Assembly: GCF_014217625.1 (NCBI RefSeq)
Contig: NZ_CP043641.1
Span: 3,658,001-3,722,000 of the forward strand
Direction of reading: 5' to 3'
DNA length: 64,000 nucleotides
Source of the DNA: Leifsonia shinshuensis
Lineage (GTDB): Bacteria; Actinomycetota; Actinomycetes; Actinomycetales; Microbacteriaceae
Shown in pieces: positions 46,979 to 59,390 of the stretch (its first letter is position 1; the number at the start of each line of letters is the position of its first letter). Below the pieces are notes generated by a model that worked only from the letters and a program-made list of their open reading frames with translations, made no database searches and had not been told where the DNA came from. The position numbers and the translations under genes are program-made.

Positions 46979-47068
46979 GGTACCGTGTCCGAGCGGCCGA
47001 AGGTGCAACTCTCGAAAAGTTGTGTGGGTGAAAGCCCACCGTGGGTTCAAATCCCACCGGTACCGCCA
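46979..47068 (+). tRNA. tRNA-Ser (CGA)
   Basis: The acceptor GGTACCG pairs with CGGTACC, with discriminator G and encoded CCA. The anticodon stem CAACT/AGTTG with loop CTCGAAA gives anticodon CGA, and a long variable arm (TGGG...CCCA) is typical of tRNA-Ser. Accessory DNA with an integrase starts right after it, so it is the likely att site. Confidence 0.96.
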
Positions 47069-49643: not shown

Positions 49644-50720
49644 TCAGATCGAACGAGCTCTCGCTTCGTGGAGAGCGGTGGAAACTGCATCGAGGTCATC
49701 GTCAAAGAGATCGGCATAGACGTCCAGCGTCATCGCGGCGGACGCATGGCCGAGCATCCGTTGCACGGCTTTGACGTTCGCGCCCGACGCGATCGCGAGG
49801 CTGGCGGCCGTGTGCCGGAGGTCGTGAATCGTCAGCTCGGCGGGCACGCCGGAGCGCTTCTTCGCATAGACGAACCAGCCCTTCCGCTGATCCGGCCGGC
49901 GCTGGTGGGTGAACCCATCGCCGAAGACGAGCGCCCTGCTCTGCTTCCCGGCGCACAGCTGTTCGAGCGGTTCGACGAGGAACTCCGGGAACGGGACGCT
50001 CCGTCGCTTGTGCGACTTCGGCGTTCCGACGACGATCTCGCCGCCGACCATGACCGCGTTCTCGTCGACTTGGAGCCGGCGTCGTTCGATGTCGATGTTG
50101 TCGACTCGAATTGCGACCGCCTCGCCCCAGCGGAGTCCGGTGTACGCGAGCAGGCGCACGAGCGGCCCGTGGTCGCCGGACTCGACCGCGAGTGCTTCGA
50201 CCTGCTTGTGAGAGAGGTAAACGTGACGCTTCTTGTTCTTGCGGGGCAGCACGACGCCACGAGCCGGGTTGCTCGGGATCCGTCGGTCGCGGACGGCGAC
50301 GTCGAGGATGCCGGCCAGAATGCCGTAGGCCCGGAGCGTGACTGTAGCGCTTCGCTTTTCAGCGAGCTCGGTCAGCCAATCCTGGACATCGCTGTAAGCC
50401 ACGTCGGTGAGCCGCACGTTCTCCCATCGTGGGGCGACGTGCAGGCGCCATGTGATTTCAAGGACCCGAAACGCTGACGGCTTCATCGCCGCCTTGCGAG
50501 CATTGAGCCAGGTCTCGTGCCGCTGGCCCACAGTCGCGCGCGAGAGGGCCGGGTCGATGTACTCACCAGTCGCGATCTTCATCTGCACCGACGCCAAGTA
50601 GATCTCGGCGGCGTGCTTGGTGCGAAGACCGCGCTTCTCCTTCTGCGTGTGGTCAGGCGCCCGCCAGCGGACGCGATAGCGCCGCCCACCTGCCGTCTCG
50701 TAGGGGGTGATGCTTCCCAT
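49644..50720 (-). CDS. int: Tyrosine-type integrase
   Basis: The protein has 358 residues. The N-terminal arm-binding domain (RYRVRWRAPDHTQKEKRGL), the core-binding SAM-like domain (RVLEITWRLHVAPRWENVRL) and the catalytic domain are complete. Catalytic residues: Arg in YTGLRWGEAVAI, His-x-x-Arg in HDLRHTAASLA, His in MLGHAS, and Tyr in LDVYADLF. It should excise and integrate the element, probably at tRNA-Ser (3' end 2.6 kb away). Its C-terminus is nearly the same as that of the remnant at 17303-17829. No excisionase gene is recognised nearby. Confidence 0.93.
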   Translation of the reverse strand: MGSITPYETAGGRRYRVRWRAPDHTQKEKRGLRTKHAAEIYLASVQMKIATGEYIDPALSRATVGQRHETWLNARKAAMKPSAFRVLEITWRLHVAPRWENVRLTDVAYSDVQDWLTELAEKRSATVTLRAYGILAGILDVAVRDRRIPSNPARGVVLPRKNKKRHVYLSHKQVEALAVESGDHGPLVRLLAYTGLRWGEAVAIRVDNIDIERRRLQVDENAVMVGGEIVVGTPKSHKRRSVPFPEFLVEPLEQLCAGKQSRALVFGDGFTHQRRPDQRKGWFVYAKKRSGVPAELTIHDLRHTAASLAIASGANVKAVQRMLGHASAAMTLDVYADLFDDDLDAVSTALHEARARSI

Positions 50721-50816
50721 GGGCAGAACCTACCTCCCGCCACCGACGAGGTCGGATCGCAGTGAGAAACGCGACCGACCTGAGCGGGTATCTGAAGATG
50801 GGTGCACTCTTGACGT

Positions 50817-51218
50817 GTGATAGAGACGCCTGAACCAAGACCGTGGGGAGCCTCGGACGATGAAGCGGTCGAGCTTTGTCGGGAGTGGATGCATTACCTC
50901 GGTGTCACGGACGTAGTTGTCGCAGTAGGTGAAGCGCGACAGGTCTGTGATCTGTACGGGTCTCGCTATCTCGGCTGGGTCATGAACAAGCGAGGGAATC
51001 TGGAAGTGGAGCTTGTTGAGCGTGCGGCGACCGTCGCCGCTGCTGATGGTCGTAGAGGATTGGTCTTCGCTCGTCGTGGTGTGATGCCGGACGCGCGGAT
51101 GAGGGCTGACGAGCTGGGGATCGCCATCTTTGGGTTCGATCCTCAGGGTGGAACTCTGGATGGCGTCAATTTGCTTGGCCGCGAGCTGTTCGCGAACGCT
51201 CAGACCAGGCAGGACTAG
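50817..51218 (+). CDS. Small Mrr/restriction-endonuclease-like domain protein, probably inactive
   Basis: The protein has 133 residues. AVELCREWMHYLGVTDVVVA, then CDLYGSRYLGWVMNKRGNLEVELVERA, and ARMRADELGIAIFGFDPQGG follow the order of a restriction-endonuclease-like (Mrr-cat) domain. One Asp equivalent remains, but the QxK catalytic pair reads as WVMNKRG, so nuclease activity is doubtful. The start is a GTG with a weak box. It is transcribed between the integrase and the relaxase and may be an accessory or immunity factor of the element. The assignment is tentative. Confidence 0.55.
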   Translation: MIETPEPRPWGASDDEAVELCREWMHYLGVTDVVVAVGEARQVCDLYGSRYLGWVMNKRGNLEVELVERAATVAAADGRRGLVFARRGVMPDARMRADELGIAIFGFDPQGGTLDGVNLLGRELFANAQTRQD

Positions 51219-51226
51219 CGACCTGT

Positions 51227-53953
51227 TCATTGAAGGCCGAGTCGAGTGAGTTGACGATCTGGCGCAGCGATAGTCGGTCCGGTGGGCGACTCGGCTGCCC
51301 GTCTGAGTTCGGTCAGGGCTGCCGCTCGCGACTTCTCTATCGTCTCTTCCAGCGTGCGGCGTTGCATCATCTCGACCAGCTGCGACTTCGCGGACTCAAA
51401 CGAGGGTGCCACTAGTACTGCGGCGTTTTGTTGCTTACCGCGAGTGAGTCCGACGTAGAGGCCCGCGGCGTCGACTCCGGGCCCGACAAGGGCGCGGTCG
51501 GTGGTCTCGCCCTGAACCCCGTAGACCGTTGTGGCGTAGGCGAGGTGCATGTGCGATTCGGCGTAAGCGAGGCTGACTTTCCGCAAATCGGTGGAGTCGG
51601 TGCTCGCAGCGAGGATTGCGTAGTCCTTGCCGATCGTTCGTACGATCCAGTTCTGGCGGTTCTGGACGTCAGCAGCACTGTCGTTACGTCGGGTCTGGAC
51701 AACGTCACCAATGTAAATCGCCTGATCCGACTGCCCGGAAATAGCACGCCCACTGCTAATCGCCCCGGATCCGAGTCGGCGGCGTTGGATCGCTTCGCTG
51801 ATCTCCTGCGCTTCCGTGTGCGTTGCCGTGATTAGTGCGATCGTCTCGTGACGACAGCTGGCGTCGAACCATCCTTCGACCATTGCCTCGCGCGCGGCGA
51901 CGTCGTTATCGGTCGTCATTACATGATCGGTTCGGATGAGATCCTCTGCGATCTCGTGCATTTCATCCTTGCCTTGGGGGTCGCGCAGTCGAAGTGTGAG
52001 GTCCGCCCACGCCGGATCTTTGAAGCGGTGGGTAGCCGTGAGCTCAAATCGATCTGGCGAGCGGTGCCAGAAGAGTGCCATGGCTCCCGAGTGCCCGACC
52101 GGTAGGGCTTGTCTCTGGTCACCGACGAGGGCGACTCCCGCTCCGGCGGCGTACGCAACGTCGAGCAGTGCTGACGCGGCCTCGAGGTCCAGCATTCCAG
52201 CCTCGTCCACGACGACGCGATCTCCAGGGTTGATACTGATCCGGGGACCGCTGTAGCCACGTCCTGTAGTCGGATCGATCTCGCCGATCGAGAGCCGTCG
52301 CCATTCGGTTGCACCAGACATGGTAGGCGCCCAACGCCATCCGTAATCGTGCAAAAGCTGGTGGAGTGACGACGACGAGCTCATCGTCTCGCGGCCCGCA
52401 ACAGCGGAAGCCTTCTTGGTCGGCGCGACGATGATCATTTTGTGACCGTGTCGACGCAGAGCTGCGCCAGCCACCTTGAGCATCGTGGTCTTGCCAGTGC
52501 CGGCCGGGCCGGAGATGACGACGTTGCGGGACGTGCCACCGATCGCGGCCGCACCAGCGAGCTGGCCTCCATCGAGCGTGCGATCGGGCTCGAGAGCGTG
52601 AGCGATCGCGGCGACCTCGTCTGTGTCGAGGATCTGTCCGGGCGCAGAGAACGCATCAACCTTTTGAGCGAGGGTGGCCTTCAGCGTGGCGGTGGAGACC
52701 GCCATGAGGTGCTTGACGTGCTTCGGGGCGTCCGGTTCGGAGATCAAGGTCACCGTGCGCGTTCGAGCCACGACTTCCTCAGCGAGCGTCGTAAGGACGC
52801 CGCGGGCGGCGACGACGCCAGTCTCCGCGATTGCGCGGAGCGCGCCGGCCCGCACGTCCATCACGCTGAAGCGACCACCGCTGCCGGTCGAGCGGGCATC
52901 GGCGTCGACAACGGCCTTGGCTGCCAGCAACTCGATATCGAGATCCTCGACGGCGACAGAAGGCAGCGGTGCGGGAGAACGCTGCATGCCGAGCGTCGGA
53001 TCAGCGGTGTGCAGTTCCTCGCGGACGAGCGCGGCCCACCCGTCCTCGTCCAGCTCGCCAGGCTTGTTGGGTCGGCCAACAGCCCACGCCCAATTGTCGA
53101 TTTGACTGAGCACATCGTGGGACGGTTCCTGCCCGGGGTGTTGCTGCTTCCACCAAAGGGTGCGGGTGATCTTGTTGGCTTCGATCTGCGCGGACCGCTT
53201 CGACAACGGTCGCACCAGATGCTGAAGTTGGGAGATCTCCCCGTCCGCGTTGAGGGTGAACCCTTTGGCGGCGAGAGCGTGGATCCAGGCGGGGTCGGTG
53301 CGGGAGGCGAGGTCACCTTCGGCGTTGATCACGTTCTGAAACCGCAACGCCACCCTCGTGTCGATGTTGGACCATTTGCCGTCTTGGCCTTGGACTTTGA
53401 CGTTGAGCCAGAGGTGGCGGTGTTTGTGCGGGTCCAGGGAGCGGGAGCGTTCGTGGCGGAGTTCGACGACCTCGGCCCGGGCCAGGTCTTCGCGAATGGC
53501 GCCGCCTTTGCCGCGGCGGGCGTTCAGCTCGGACTGCCACAGCTTGATGATCCGGTCCCGGAGCCGGTCTTGGAGGTCCTCATACGCGGCAGCCAACTCG
53601 GGGTCGAGCATCGCGGCGATCGAGAACGACTTCGGTGCGTTGATCGTCGCATCCAGGACCAGGTCCGCAACGGGGGACTCGAGGTCACGCCCGCGACGTT
53701 CCCCAGTGATCGGGTCGAGTCCGTCGACCCAGTCCTTGAGTTGGTCCTTGGTGAGGAGGTCGTCGCGGATGGCACCGTTCTCCACGACGTACCGGGTCAT
53801 CACCGCGTCCGCATAGCCGGCCGCGGCGATCACACCGTCTGCGGTCTTAGCAGTGAGGGTGGCGTCACAGACCCCGCTGAAGGCGTAGTTGACCGCTTGC
53901 TTGACACCGTGGGAAGACTGTCCCCGCTTCCACCTCGCTACTCCACCTCGCAC
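51227..53953 (-). CDS. MobF-type relaxase with fused helicase (TrwC/TraI-like)
   Basis: The protein has 908 residues. The N-terminal TrwC relaxase domain has a candidate nicking Tyr54 (DAVMTRYVVENG) and the three-His metal motif in SLDPHKHRHLWLNV. A linker region follows. The C-terminal SF1B (RecD/Tra) helicase has Walker A GPAGTGKTTML, Walker B VVVDEAGMLD, then LVGDQRQALP and ATTVYGVQGETTDRA. It nicks at oriT and unwinds the strand during conjugative transfer. The start is a GTG with a GGGAGGTGA box. The first helix is shorter than in TrwC (YYxxxD-type double Tyr not seen), so initiator residues should be checked. Confidence 0.9.
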   Translation of the reverse strand: MRGGVARWKRGQSSHGVKQAVNYAFSGVCDATLTAKTADGVIAAAGYADAVMTRYVVENGAIRDDLLTKDQLKDWVDGLDPITGERRGRDLESPVADLVLDATINAPKSFSIAAMLDPELAAAYEDLQDRLRDRIIKLWQSELNARRGKGGAIREDLARAEVVELRHERSRSLDPHKHRHLWLNVKVQGQDGKWSNIDTRVALRFQNVINAEGDLASRTDPAWIHALAAKGFTLNADGEISQLQHLVRPLSKRSAQIEANKITRTLWWKQQHPGQEPSHDVLSQIDNWAWAVGRPNKPGELDEDGWAALVREELHTADPTLGMQRSPAPLPSVAVEDLDIELLAAKAVVDADARSTGSGGRFSVMDVRAGALRAIAETGVVAARGVLTTLAEEVVARTRTVTLISEPDAPKHVKHLMAVSTATLKATLAQKVDAFSAPGQILDTDEVAAIAHALEPDRTLDGGQLAGAAAIGGTSRNVVISGPAGTGKTTMLKVAGAALRRHGHKMIIVAPTKKASAVAGRETMSSSSSLHQLLHDYGWRWAPTMSGATEWRRLSIGEIDPTTGRGYSGPRISINPGDRVVVDEAGMLDLEAASALLDVAYAAGAGVALVGDQRQALPVGHSGAMALFWHRSPDRFELTATHRFKDPAWADLTLRLRDPQGKDEMHEIAEDLIRTDHVMTTDNDVAAREAMVEGWFDASCRHETIALITATHTEAQEISEAIQRRRLGSGAISSGRAISGQSDQAIYIGDVVQTRRNDSAADVQNRQNWIVRTIGKDYAILAASTDSTDLRKVSLAYAESHMHLAYATTVYGVQGETTDRALVGPGVDAAGLYVGLTRGKQQNAAVLVAPSFESAKSQLVEMMQRRTLEETIEKSRAAALTELRRAAESPTGPTIAAPDRQLTRLGLQ

Positions 53954-55409: not shown

Positions 55410-56124
55410 CTAGCCGTGGAGCTCGATGATCTCCGCGAGGGTATGGGCCACCTTCAGGACGAGTGCTGCGGTGTCTCGAATGACCGTGACGTCTTCGTCC
55501 GCCCACCCGGTGATGTATCCGACGCTGTATGCGCTGGTGTCGAATCCGGTGAGACCGGAGACGATGTACGCGACCGATTCGGCTTCGACTTCCATCTGGC
55601 CGCGGTGAGCGCGGTACTCGTCGACGTCGTCGATGTGGCGCAGTTCGATGTGTGCGGTTTCGTGAATGAGCGTCTTCGCGGCCTGCTCAATGGCGAGGTT
55701 TTCAGCCAAGGTCACCCGGCGCGACTTGGGGTCGGTGTACCCGCTAGCATTTCCGATCGCCGCGCGGTGAACCGTCCATCCGTGCGTCGCGAGGTGCGCG
55801 GTGAGGGAAGGGATGACGCCGTGGTCGTCGTCGCCGGTCAGCTGGTGGGTCGGGTTCTCTGGCAGTGGCTCGGCCCCTTCGATTGGGTCCGTCTGCGCAA
55901 TGTCGAACACCGACAACGTCGGGAAATACCGAATCACGCGCTTAGCCTCTTGGGCTGCTTCATCAGCGCCCTCAACGGGTTCGTTCTTCTTCTCGTGGTA
56001 CCCGAAGATCTTGATCGACTTCTCGCCTCTGCGCACCTGACGTCCTTTCGCCTGCCACTGCCGGAACCCAGCGACCATCGTCGCTTCTGGGTTCTGGGCG
56101 AGGATCAGGAGGAGGTTGTTCAGG
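55410..56124 (-). pseudogene. ardC-type antirestriction gene, C-terminal part (split by insertion)
   Basis: This is the C-terminal 237 codons of an ArdC-like protein. The start fragment LNNLLLILAQNPEATMVAG joins GRQVRRGEKSIKIFGY (the ssDNA-binding ArdC/DUF1738 domain). A zincin domain follows with HETAHIELRH as HExxH and a downstream Glu in MEVEAESVAYI. ArdC proteins protect incoming DNA from host restriction during conjugation. The N-terminal 50 codons are found at 59239-59390, with a three-gene recombinase element between. Without the insertion both parts give one 288-residue protein. As it stands the protein is disrupted. Confidence 0.85.
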
Positions 56125-56137
56125 AAGGCTGGGGAAT

Positions 56138-56150
56138 TGCATCTGATGCA
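56138..56150. promoter_or_regulatory. Perfect palindrome TGCATCTGATGCA near the element's left end
   Basis: This 13-bp palindrome lies 14 bp inside the element. Its left part, TGCATCTGATG, is repeated at 56270-56280. It could be a recombinase or regulator binding site. Confidence 0.4.
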
Positions 56151-56269
56151 GGATTCAGGGATTCGAGACCGGCCGAGGCTGCGTCGCCTCGGGCCCTGTG
56201 GTCGCTGCGTAGAAACGCCACATGAGGTGCTGCGGTGCGGAAACGAGGAGCGAACCTCACCCCGGATCG

Positions 56270-56295
56270 TGCATCTGATGAATGATATCATCATC
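56270..56295 (+). promoter_or_regulatory. Operator-like palindrome ahead of the element's recombinase gene
   Basis: ATGATATCAT (56282-56291) is a perfect 10-bp palindrome inside a longer imperfect one (GATGA...CATC), and is preceded by a second TGCATCTGATG. It lies 45 bp before the recombinase start and is AT-rich against the surrounding DNA. It is a likely promoter-operator, perhaps for the XRE-type protein of the element. Confidence 0.45.
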
Positions 56296-56339
56296 GGGTG
56301 TCGGTGCGAGGTGCGGATGGTCCCGAGGAGGAGCGGTCG

Positions 56340-57431
56340 GTGCGCGTTGCTCAAGGCAGCCCAGCGGCGCGGCTGCTCACACCGGGCGTGGCGCTGTTCG
56401 CCGCCGAGGAGACCGTGCTCGCGGCGATGCTGGAGGGCTGGGAGCTGCAGCAGCGGTCCCGAATGCTGTCGGGGTTGACGATCGAGCGTCGGCTGTTGAC
56501 GGTTCGCCGGTTCGCGTCGTTCACGAACGACTACCCGTGGCACTGGACGCCGGGCGATGTCGAGGCGTGGACGGCGGAGATGGTCTCGGCGGGGATGGCG
56601 CACTCGACGGTGCGGAACTACCAGATGGCGGTGTCGCTGTTCTGCGGCTACCTCTCCGATCCCCGTTATCAGTGGCACGAGGTCTGCGAACGGCACTTCG
56701 GAGACGTGCCGGTGCAGGTGTTCCACGAGTGGAACACGGTGATCCATCGCAGCGACTACGAGGGGCGGCCGGGCAACCGGCCGCTGTCGCGCGACGAGCT
56801 CCAAGCGTTCTTCGACTATTGCGACCAGCGCGTCTCCCAGGTGCAGTCGACGGGCCGCAAGGGCTGGCTGGCGGCGTTCCGCGACGCGACACTGTTCAAG
56901 ACGATCTACGCCTGGGGTCTGCGCCGGCGGGAAGCCTCCAAGTTGGAGACGGTTGACTGGTCGGGCAACGCTGCGGCTATCGGGTTCGGCCGATACGGGG
57001 CGCTGGCCGTCCGCTACGGCAAAGCACTGCGCGGCAGCCCGCCCAGGCGTCGCACCGTTCTGACCACGATGGGGTGGGCGGCCGAGGCCGTCGCGGAGTG
57101 GACGGAGGAGCTTCGCCCGCTCTACGACGCGACAGGCACGGCGTTGTGGCCGACTGAGCGGCGCGCCCGCGTCAGCGCGGATGCGATCTCGCGACGGTTC
57201 GCCGAGTACCGGGACGCGATCGGTCTGGACCGGAACCTCGGCCCGCACTGCCTGCGCCACTCGTATGCGACGCATCTGCTCGAAGACGGCTTCGACCACT
57301 TGTTCGTGCAGCAGCAGCTCGGCCATTCCTGGGGCTCGACGACCGCGATCTACACGACCGTCGGCGCCGACTACAAGAACAAGGCGCTGCGCCGAGCCCT
57401 CGACCGCGCCTTCCAGCCCGAGACCGAGTGA
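56340..57431 (+). CDS. Tyrosine recombinase of the ardC-inserted element
   Basis: The protein has 363 residues. An N-terminal SAM-like DNA-binding domain (LTIERRLLTVRRFASFTNDY) precedes the catalytic domain: Arg in YAWGLRRREASKLE, Lys in the beta-hairpin region, HCLRHSYATHLLEDG (HxxR), QQLGHSWGSTT (His), and Tyr in TAIYTTVGADY. All active-site residues are present, so it should be catalytic. I chose the GTG at 56340 because of the GAGGAGGAG box; GTG at 56298 is also in frame. It is the first gene of the three-gene unit and 19 bp upstream of the HTH gene. Confidence 0.9.
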   Translation: MRVAQGSPAARLLTPGVALFAAEETVLAAMLEGWELQQRSRMLSGLTIERRLLTVRRFASFTNDYPWHWTPGDVEAWTAEMVSAGMAHSTVRNYQMAVSLFCGYLSDPRYQWHEVCERHFGDVPVQVFHEWNTVIHRSDYEGRPGNRPLSRDELQAFFDYCDQRVSQVQSTGRKGWLAAFRDATLFKTIYAWGLRRREASKLETVDWSGNAAAIGFGRYGALAVRYGKALRGSPPRRRTVLTTMGWAAEAVAEWTEELRPLYDATGTALWPTERRARVSADAISRRFAEYRDAIGLDRNLGPHCLRHSYATHLLEDGFDHLFVQQQLGHSWGSTTAIYTTVGADYKNKALRRALDRAFQPETE

Positions 57432-57450
57432 GACCCCGAGGAGGAACACG

Positions 57451-57801
57451 ATGGCACGCACACCCCAGCCCCGCCTGGGATACCGATGGCACCTGCGACG
57501 GCTGATGGCCGCCCAGGAGATGTTCGCCACCACGACACTGGTTCCGCTGCTCGCCGAGCGCGGCATCGTCCTGTCTGAAGCGCAGGTATATCGGCTCGTC
57601 ACCGGCACCCCCGAGCGGTTGAGCCTGCGCACTCTGACCGCGCTCTGCGACATCCTCGGCTGCACCCCGAACGACCTCATCGAGCCCGTCGCCGAGACCG
57701 CAGCCGTCAAAGCTACCGGCACCACCGGGAAACCCACTGCCGTCTCGGCCACGGCGAAGACCCGCACCCCGCGGCGCGCGGATATCACCCGCAGCAAGTG
57801 A
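57451..57801 (+). CDS. XRE-type HTH protein of the three-gene element
   Basis: The protein has 116 residues. The HTH domain LVPLLAERGIVLSEAQVYRLVTGTPERLSLRTLTALCDILGCTPNDLIEPV resembles the Cro/C1 (HTH_26) type. The tail is Ala/Thr/Lys-rich and basic (RTPRRADITRSK), suiting DNA contact. It may regulate the element or act as a directionality factor. Its stop overlaps the next start as GTGA, so both are coupled. Confidence 0.8.
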   Translation: MARTPQPRLGYRWHLRRLMAAQEMFATTTLVPLLAERGIVLSEAQVYRLVTGTPERLSLRTLTALCDILGCTPNDLIEPVAETAAVKATGTTGKPTAVSATAKTRTPRRADITRSK

Positions 57802-59195
57802 CGGGACAAACCTGTCAGCTCTGCGACCGCGCCGCGATGCCCGGCCGTGGGCTCTGCTCGCGTTGCAGCAAGGGCGTCGGTCGAGTGCGCGGCGACTGCT
57901 CCCGCTGCGAGAAACCGGATCGGCTGCTCGACTTCGAGGGCCGCTGCCGATGGTGTCGTGAACGAGCCAGGAAACACTGCCAGGACTGCAGCCGCAGTGA
58001 CGTCCTCCTCGTCGGCATCGACGGGAACCGTGTCTGCAATCCCTGCGCGCTGCGGCGGCACCTTGACCGCGTGCTCACCGGAGACGGCGTGCTCGCCCCG
58101 CTGCACGCGTCGGTCCTCGCCGCGGAACCCCTCACGACCCGCCGCTGGCTGACCCGCACCCGCGACCTGCTGCGCGACCTCGACACCGGCCGCATCCCGC
58201 TCAGCCACGACACCCTCGACCGGTTCCCGCAACGCCGAGCAGCCGAGCATCTGCGCGCGCTGCTGATCGCCGCTGGGCTCCTCGAGCCGGACCCTCATCG
58301 AAGCCTGCGCCGCCTCGAAGCCCGCGTCCTGGATCTGACCGCACCGCTGGATCACGAGCACCGGCAGCTCGCGACGCGCTGGCTCAACTGGAAAGTCCTG
58401 CCACGGCTGCGGACTCTGGACGAGCAACAGCGCGTCGACATCAGCGCGCGCAACGCTACCCGCCAGATCGAACAGGTCGTCGCCTTCCTCGCTGGACTGC
58501 AAGACGTCGACCGGCATCTGGACGAGGCAACCCAGCACGATATCGATTCGTGGTTCGCGGGCCCCGGCGCCATCCGACACGTCGTCCGCCCGTTCCTCAC
58601 CTGGGCACGCCAGAACCGTCAGCTGCCCCGAGAGATCGAGCTCCCGCCCACCTACGTCGGACAGCCCGTCACCCCGATGGACACCGAACAGCGTTGGCAG
58701 ATCGCCCGGCGACTGATCACCGACGACACCCTCGATCCCGCCGACCGGATCGCCGCCGCGCTCATCGTGCTCTACGCGCAACCGGTGAACCGGGTCGTTG
58801 CGCTCACGACCGACGACGTGACCGTCACCGAGACCGGCACGAACCTCGCCCTCGGCACTGACGCGCTCGAACTGCCCGAGCCGTTCGCGACCGTGATCCG
58901 CCAACTCCCGGTCCGCCGCCGCGCCGGCACGGCCGAGCAGCTCCCGACCCGATGGCTGTTCCCCGGAAACCACGCCGGCACCCACATCACCCAGAACGCT
59001 CTAGCGAACCGGCTGCGCCGAACACTCGACATCCAGCCGAGGCAACTGCGCCTGGCCGCAGCCGAGCAGCTCACCCGAGAGATCCCGCCCGCGATGCTCG
59101 CCAGCATCCTCGGACTGCGCCCACTCACCATCGTCCGCATCAGCGCGAACGCTGGCGGCTCGTGGGCGAACTACGCCGCCGACCGGCAGACCTGA
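57798..59195 (+). CDS. Zinc-ribbon protein with a degenerate tyrosine-recombinase domain
   Basis: The protein has 465 residues. The first 85 residues hold six CxxC pairs (6/9, 20/23, 34/37, 50/53, 61/64, 80/83), probably three zinc ribbons. A helical core-binding-like region (RWLNWKVLPRLRTLDEQQRVD and RHVVRPFLTWARQNRQLP) and a recombinase-like C-terminal domain follow. There the usual active-site motifs appear changed: RLAAAEQL in place of the HxxR box, SILGLRPLT in place of LGH. I infer a non-catalytic partner that binds element ends with the true recombinase. It is the last gene before the right end. Confidence 0.75.
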   Translation: MTGQTCQLCDRAAMPGRGLCSRCSKGVGRVRGDCSRCEKPDRLLDFEGRCRWCRERARKHCQDCSRSDVLLVGIDGNRVCNPCALRRHLDRVLTGDGVLAPLHASVLAAEPLTTRRWLTRTRDLLRDLDTGRIPLSHDTLDRFPQRRAAEHLRALLIAAGLLEPDPHRSLRRLEARVLDLTAPLDHEHRQLATRWLNWKVLPRLRTLDEQQRVDISARNATRQIEQVVAFLAGLQDVDRHLDEATQHDIDSWFAGPGAIRHVVRPFLTWARQNRQLPREIELPPTYVGQPVTPMDTEQRWQIARRLITDDTLDPADRIAAALIVLYAQPVNRVVALTTDDVTVTETGTNLALGTDALELPEPFATVIRQLPVRRRAGTAEQLPTRWLFPGNHAGTHITQNALANRLRRTLDIQPRQLRLAAAEQLTREIPPAMLASILGLRPLTIVRISANAGGSWANYAADRQT

Positions 59196-59201
59196 CAGCG
59201 A

Positions 59202-59222
59202 GTATTCACGGGGTTCGAATAC
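59202..59222 (+). repeat. GTATTC-N9-GAATAC inverted repeat near the element's right end
   Basis: This dyad lies 16 bp inside the right boundary. The inner sequence ATTCACGGGGTTCGAA resembles ATTCAGGGATTCGAG at 56153 near the left end, in the same orientation. The pair may be the core sites that the recombinase joins on excision. Confidence 0.45.
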
Positions 59223-59238
59223 GCCAACCCTGCCAGTC

Positions 59239-59390
59239 CTGTAGTTGTGGAAGGAGCGGGCGAACTCCAGGAATGCCCGCCACTGGCCGCTGTCGGCGAG
59301 CTGTTGGACCTGGTCCATGATCGACGCGTGCAGTGCCTCCGCCTCCGCCTGTCGTTCCTCTGCACTTCGAGAGTTGTGGGTGGGGACCAT
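59239..59390 (-). pseudogene. ardC-type antirestriction gene, N-terminal part
   Basis: The first 50 codons of the ArdC-like protein lie here, ending FLEFARSFHNY, just where the family continues with S-LNN. The ATG at 59390 has an AGGAGG box 9 bp upstream. After residue 50 the frame runs into the inserted element (RTGRVGV...) and stops being ArdC-like. The other 237 codons lie at 55410-56124. Confidence 0.85.

Follow-up and report, generated by a model that had tools for sequence, protein, structure and literature searches.

Introduction

The 'XER modules', described in 2018 on plasmids of Antarctic Arthrobacter, are built on a core of a tyrosine recombinase ('XerD'), an XRE regulator and a further recombinase ('XerC'), and carry 4 or 14 further genes, between umuC and umuD (PMC6305408). 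Here we analyse a 64,000-nucleotide stretch of Leifsonia shinshuensis DNA (contig NZ_CP043641.1, positions 3,658,001 to 3,722,000; 'the window'), in which a mobile element of 3,114 bp on the plus strand (56125–59238) interrupts an ardC gene. Compared by description, the element has the same ordered core of tyrosine recombinase, XRE protein and second recombinase-like protein, whereas it lacks the cargo of the modules. The available portions of the 2018 report do not define ends or a target motif for XER modules, and mention neither a circle, zinc ribbons, a loss of catalytic residues nor a mechanism (PMC6305408). Among the matches listed in a search of openly licensed papers, the accessible text likewise held no account of the ends, target or circle of such trios.

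Several other systems are related in part. Tn554 and the actinobacterial Tn554-like elements resemble the window element in having a pair of recombinase-fold proteins, in many cases with a third, small protein, and in their few targets and identical copies on chromosome and plasmid; going by its description, Tn554 is set apart by a catalytic motif in both recombinases, one of which is long, and by a different gene order (PMC3414803, PMC10214605). Two catalytically competent recombinases, equivalent to TnpA and TnpB, are not encoded by the window element, as judged by eye. The strand-biased circularizing integrative elements (SEs) and the GInts combine an active recombinase with a motif-less recombinase-fold protein, target specificity and, as proposed below for the window element, a circular intermediate, but they are described with two recombinases that are active and a core of four genes, in contrast to three genes and a single recombinase with catalytic residues here (PMC10214605, PMC5385486). 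Neither the SE arrangement (two active recombinases with tfp and srap, and transfer of a 6-bp footprint between junctions) nor the four-gene gin operon of GInts with its three recombinase-like proteins is found in the window element, which has three genes and two recombinase-like proteins. RIT elements also have three adjacent genes, and all three of their proteins are described with a possible catalytic motif (PMC3414803, PMC8138268); the window element has instead an HTH (helix-turn-helix) protein and a degenerate third protein.

The element is, with high probability, a minimal and recently active member of an actinobacterial tyrosine-recombinase transposon family with the 'XER module' gene order. 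New here are its exact ends, its target motif, the degeneracy of the second recombinase, the deposited circle of a relative and the position of other relatives near dif-like sites.

Extent, copies and empty sites

The repeated unit begins with AAGGCTGGGG (56125–56134, plus strand) and ends with CCTGCCAGTC (59229–59238, plus strand). Five copies, each 3,114 bp long and with these ends unchanged, are present in the 4.61 Mb genome, four on the chromosome-sized 4.4 Mb contig to which the window belongs and one on a contig of 52.7 kb that is probably a plasmid. A query of 3,106 bp, out of the full 3,114 bp, matched all five with 100% identity. Neighbouring genes differ from copy to copy while the ends stay the same; alignment of the flanks, a check put forward in the earlier note, fixes the limits in 5/5 cases. 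At a further locus (L007) the right end is present and the left end is absent, perhaps through an assembly break. No close copy was found in 27 other genomes of the genus, where the best match was a 1.2-kb stretch with 69% identity (in G023). We infer from these comparisons that the element came from outside and multiplied recently in this genome; recent movement is suggested because the genome holds four more identical copies.

In the window, the element separates the 5' part (59239–59390, minus strand) from the 3' part (55410–56124, minus strand) of ardC. The C-terminal part of the protein matches ArdcN (PF08401, 1.1e-10); the 50-residue N-terminal part, searched alone, has no Pfam match, and its assignment comes from uninterrupted relatives and from joining the flanks. 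When the two flanks are joined by script, a single 867-bp frame results that reads ...FHNYSLNNLL... across the join, with the Ser codon at the junction, and the same site is uninterrupted (...AG(G/A)CTGTAG) at 9/9 loci from nine genomes of the genus. The uninterrupted homologues examined do not contain the 56125–59238 segment.

The five copies lie in two ardC genes and in genes for a desaturase, an ABC permease and a lipoprotein, the last three being named from protein context and not from a family search. Empty versions of all five targets occur in relatives of the same genus. For the second ardC, on the 52.7-kb contig, the joined 57-base flanks were matched without mismatch at 6/7 loci and with 2 mismatches at the seventh; the desaturase and permease sites are empty at 14/14 loci each; the lipoprotein site was read from 5/14 loci (L064, L065, L066, L068 and L069), the other nine being different matches of the query that were left out. 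Compared with these empty sites, none of the five insertions shows a target duplication or a lost base, and each adds exactly 3,114 bp. A 3-bp duplication of AAG, which the desaturase and lipoprotein sites share, was considered and is ruled out by the other three sites. Insertion without target duplication is a trait of Tn554, and the window element has it too. At the three informative sites (CT in both ardC targets, AT in the permease) the AA at the left junction belongs to the element, and the two bases at the right junction are those of the target; the remaining two targets begin with AA themselves and are uninformative in this respect. The earlier note, made from the window alone, had proposed a discrete unit with these limits, whose removal restores ardC exactly and which leaves no target duplication, and all of this is borne out by the copies and the natural empty sites.

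Five other genomes of the genus (L177–L181) share a 520-bp stretch of the second ardC. The stretch is 100% identical in all five, which suggests that the replicon or region carrying this gene moves between species.

Target sequences

The 30 bases to the left of the insertion point are alike in the four unrelated target genes, the second ardC having been left out of this comparison as a homologue of the first. The four arms give 101/180 pairwise matches, against 51 +/- 7 for random 30-mers of the window, and a score of 101 was reached in 0/20,000 random draws and again in 0/20,000 draws under a null that keeps the codon phase. Nine positions are the same in all four (G-1, G-7, T-8, T-9, A-15, G-17, A-18, G-22 and T-30). 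In the window this left arm occupies 56095–56124, inside the 3' part of ardC. The right 20 bases of the targets agree weakly (48/120, p 0.014).

A relative on plasmid pYJND-1 of Paenarthrobacter sp. YJN-D is inserted at the same ardC codon (HRYS), so that three different ardC genes, two in this genome and one in Paenarthrobacter, have been struck at one codon. This relative is 12,044 bp long; its core is 81% identical to the window element at the DNA level and about 9 kb of cargo encodes a sigma factor, a protein with a glycoside-hydrolase domain and transposases. The description of the element as cargo-free in the earlier note is thus right for the copies of this genome, which hold three genes each, but does not extend to its close relative. 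A further copy in the same strain, on pYJND-3, begins within an annotated aminotransferase gene. In the two YJN-D copies the left end is AAGGCCGGGG and the right end CCTGCCAGTA.

A passive repeat, carried around by homologous recombination or by other elements without being mobile itself, would account for repetition as such. Five targets (four unrelated genes), exact ends, the lack of duplication and a common target motif all speak against it, and it is highly improbable.

The three proteins

All three genes lie on the plus strand. Gene 1 (56298–57431) encodes a tyrosine recombinase of 377 amino acids (P0001) that matches Phage_integrase (PF00589, 1.8e-18), and the catalytic residues R, HxLRH, LGH and Y are present by eye. 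Gene 2 (57451–57801) encodes an XRE-type protein of 116 amino acids (P0002) with an HTH_26 domain (PF13443, 5.3e-16). Gene 3 (57798–59195) encodes a protein of 465 amino acids (P0003), in which six CxxC pairs are followed by a degenerate tyrosine-recombinase fold. This is the gene content that had been read from the sequence, the fold of the third protein being a predicted one.

In an alignment of P0003 with 35 relatives (36 sequences), the 12 cysteines of the six CxxC pairs are kept in 33–35 rows. The first catalytic Arg, the His of HxxR and the His of LGH are unrecognisable across the 36 rows when inspected by eye; an Arg and a Tyr near the C-terminal end are common, each in 30/36. Among 26 members of this family scanned at E up to 1, Phage_integrase was matched by 5 (best 1.3e-6) and a double zinc ribbon by 10 (best 5.1e-4). 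An AlphaFold2 model of P0003, built from a 26-row alignment, has a mean predicted local distance difference test score of 84.2 and a predicted template modelling score of 0.61. In a fold search with this model there were 121 matches, and all 50 of those listed are tyrosine recombinases, including XerH, XerA, the Tn1549 integrase, an integron integrase, lambda integrase and Cre; 29 matches reach E <=0.001 (best 3.9e-5), with query-normalised template modelling scores of at most ~0.4. From the model and the alignment, the third protein is probably a recombinase-like helper that lacks an active site and bears zinc ribbons.

The same data bear on whether the element could be a Tn554-type transposon with altered gene order, in which both recombinases are active and the HTH protein serves as TnpC. 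Two recombinase-fold proteins with one small protein, insertion without duplication and few targets would suit this, and relatives of Tn554 with long recombinases are known from Actinobacteria (PMC3414803). The usual catalytic residues, however, could not be recognised by eye in the aligned rows of the third protein. Further evidence comes from Rhodococcus plasmid pDK3 (L132, 5688–13419), where a trio is flanked by recombinases of 381 and 812 amino acids, a pair taken to be of the Tn554-like kind; there the gene 3 profile, P0001 and P0002 match the genes of the trio and neither of the two flanking recombinases. A Tn554-type transposon is, on this evidence, an unlikely identity for the element. 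The pDK3 trio itself is perhaps an insertion inside a Tn554-like element.

Distribution and relatives at dif-like sites

The earlier note had set the trio apart from the usual gene order of Tn554. The trio is not unique: gene 3 homologues were found at 1e-30 in 31/398 genomes of the family and at 1e-20 in 22/396 genomes drawn from the phylum (the source genome included in both counts, some of the latter matches being fragments), as well as in 237/72,556 plasmid records, and its genes are arranged as in the XER modules. The genera listed for the plasmid matches number 10, all actinobacterial, with 15 further genera beyond those. Searched as a linked set, the three genes stand in the same order at 25/29 family loci and are all present at 6/7 further loci; three of the four exceptions (L094, L105 and L109) are located at the ends of contigs, unlike the fourth (L113), and the remaining further locus (L020) has no gene 3 match in the stretch available.

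Part of the trio family lies at dif-like sites. Two distant members are present in several copies, and all four copies in genome G229 and two of the three in G352 have the pattern CCGATA-N7-TTATGTCA at their recombinase-side end, and the exact pattern occurs nowhere else in these two genomes, nor in the window's own genome. For comparison, the predicted dif of Frankia alni is given as CACGCCGATAATGCACATTATGTCAAGT (PMC3025954). The central bases of the sites vary between copies in both G229 (L120–L123) and G352 (L124, L125). In the stretches upstream of other members, a dif-like site with at least 15 of the 18 arm bases, its XerD arm facing the element, was found in 9/31, while shuffled stretches reach at most 13/18. 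One member (L157, 77 bases) was excluded before this count; two stretches (L146, L175) are short and some members are truncated, so that the element end does not lie in every stretch.

The window's own genome holds a distant trio member (L184, positions 760157–761620 of the chromosome-sized contig), which stands beside a dif-like site with 16/18 arm bases that starts 119 bases 5' of the recombinase open frame.

The window clade uses ordinary genes as targets and not dif-like sites. A dif-like target for this clade was tried and set aside as suggestive at most, the p value being the best of six offsets and the pYJND-3 site fitting another.

A circular relative

The 'plasmid pD' of Paenarthrobacter ureafaciens AT (NZ_CP094493.1, L140) is a circle of 4,712 bp that carries three hypothetical genes besides a trio; its gene table, a list known to have gaps, shows no gene for replication. 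The circle matches with 100% identity a unit that stands twice in tandem, with a period of 4,714 bp by alignment, on plasmid pA of the same strain (NZ_CP094490.1, L141), adjoining a dif-like site. The join in pD brings together both element ends seen in pA. The simplest reading is that pD is a free circle of the trio element, and the tandem on pA would likewise be consistent with a circle that integrated next to a copy already there.

Discussion

The results can be accommodated by a scheme in which the recombinase, in concert with the HTH protein and its degenerate zinc-ribbon counterpart, would join the left and right ends to form a circle, which would then recombine at the point immediately right of the target arm. 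The degenerate partner would probably sit on one arm of the synapse, with the zinc ribbons helping to choose the target. The element's AA would remain at the left junction and the target bases at the right, so that reversal would restore the target exactly. Judged from the sequences, a recombinase-made circle is the intermediate that we favour, with some reserve. For gene 3, a role as structural, target-selecting partner is plausible though short of probable; it is suggested by analogy with Tfp and GinC, which are also described as lacking the catalytic motif (PMC10214605).

Movement could alternatively follow a strand-biased copy-out route like that of SEs or GInts, which would leave no empty donor site, so that ardC would not be restored in the same cell. 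These elements likewise have a recombinase-fold partner without catalytic motif (PMC10214605), all three sites of this genome that are informative show an identical partition of bases at the junction, and a tandem pair and a circle are recorded for one strain. The 6-bp footprint of SEs, however, is described as switching side with each move (PMC10214605), whereas the left end is constant here in 5/5 copies. Copy-out is a serious possibility, though less likely than not.

A number of observations weigh against parts of the excision scheme or the readings on which it draws. Positions of the target motif are not absolute, since the base at -7 is T in the second ardC and A at the pYJND-3 site, which also has A at -1. 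P0003 itself has no Pfam match, also at E up to 1, a profile comparison of the third-protein family with P0001 gave no match, and in many gene 3 relatives an Arg lies two places past that expected for the catalytic Arg. As to dif, 21/31 upstream stretches are without a dif-like site, as is the third G352 copy (L161), and one member (L162) has 18/18 arm bases but on the other strand. The targets of the window clade are, for their part, weakly dif-like, with a summed score over five sites of p 0.00075 at a 2-bp offset, the best of six offsets; the pYJND-3 site fits a different one (12/18 at offset 0). The side that keeps the element's AA can be read at only 3/5 sites. The join in pD lacks 2 bp that are found at the tandem junction of pA, and pD itself may have arisen during assembly from the tandem copies. 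The sequence next to the right end is ACTA in pA as well as in the two YJN-5 copies, so that for elements of this type the right limit can be placed only to within a few bases. Finally, no excision product of the window element itself was seen, the evidence consisting of sequences.

A more far-reaching reading would make these elements a separate class, in which a dead zinc-ribbon partner picks the target while one active recombinase cuts, the ancestral site lay on the XerD side of dif and the window clade was re-targeted to the ardC motif. We regard this as possible and put it forward tentatively. If true, retargeting to ardC, a gene carried by conjugative plasmids, would offer a route between hosts, and the three ardC genes hit at the same codon would find their place in it. 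Elements of this type are widespread in actinobacteria, and no account of their mechanism was found in the papers searched; with ends defined to the base, known targets and natural empty sites, the reaction can be tested directly. The minimal member, 3.1 kb long and free of cargo, lends itself to the question of what function a degenerate recombinase partner has, and equally to that of how a recombinase switches from dif to new sites.

Other features of the element and its surroundings

Scans of the element for promoters and terminators found none, and a PADLOC search at E 0.01 gave no match. A subterminal palindromic motif, TGCATCTGATGCAGGAT, lies at 56138–56154 (plus strand), and a second, 88% identical copy directly 5' of the recombinase gene (56270–56286, plus strand); it is a possible accessory site for the HTH protein or the recombinase. 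Some relatives have a similar motif 15–20 bp in from the left end, and others are without it. In the form GCATCTGATGC, which lies roughly 15 bp in from the left end and recurs 5' of gene 1, it is similarly placed in pYJND-1, pA, YJN-5 and G352, and no such motif is present at the corresponding place in G229 or in the distant trio member of this genome. The GCATCTGATGC motif may bind the HTH protein.

Near the interrupted ardC, the window encodes a phage-type integrase and a TrwC-type relaxase with a helicase domain (49644–53953), with a tRNA-Ser at 46979. This region may be an integrated mobilizable element.

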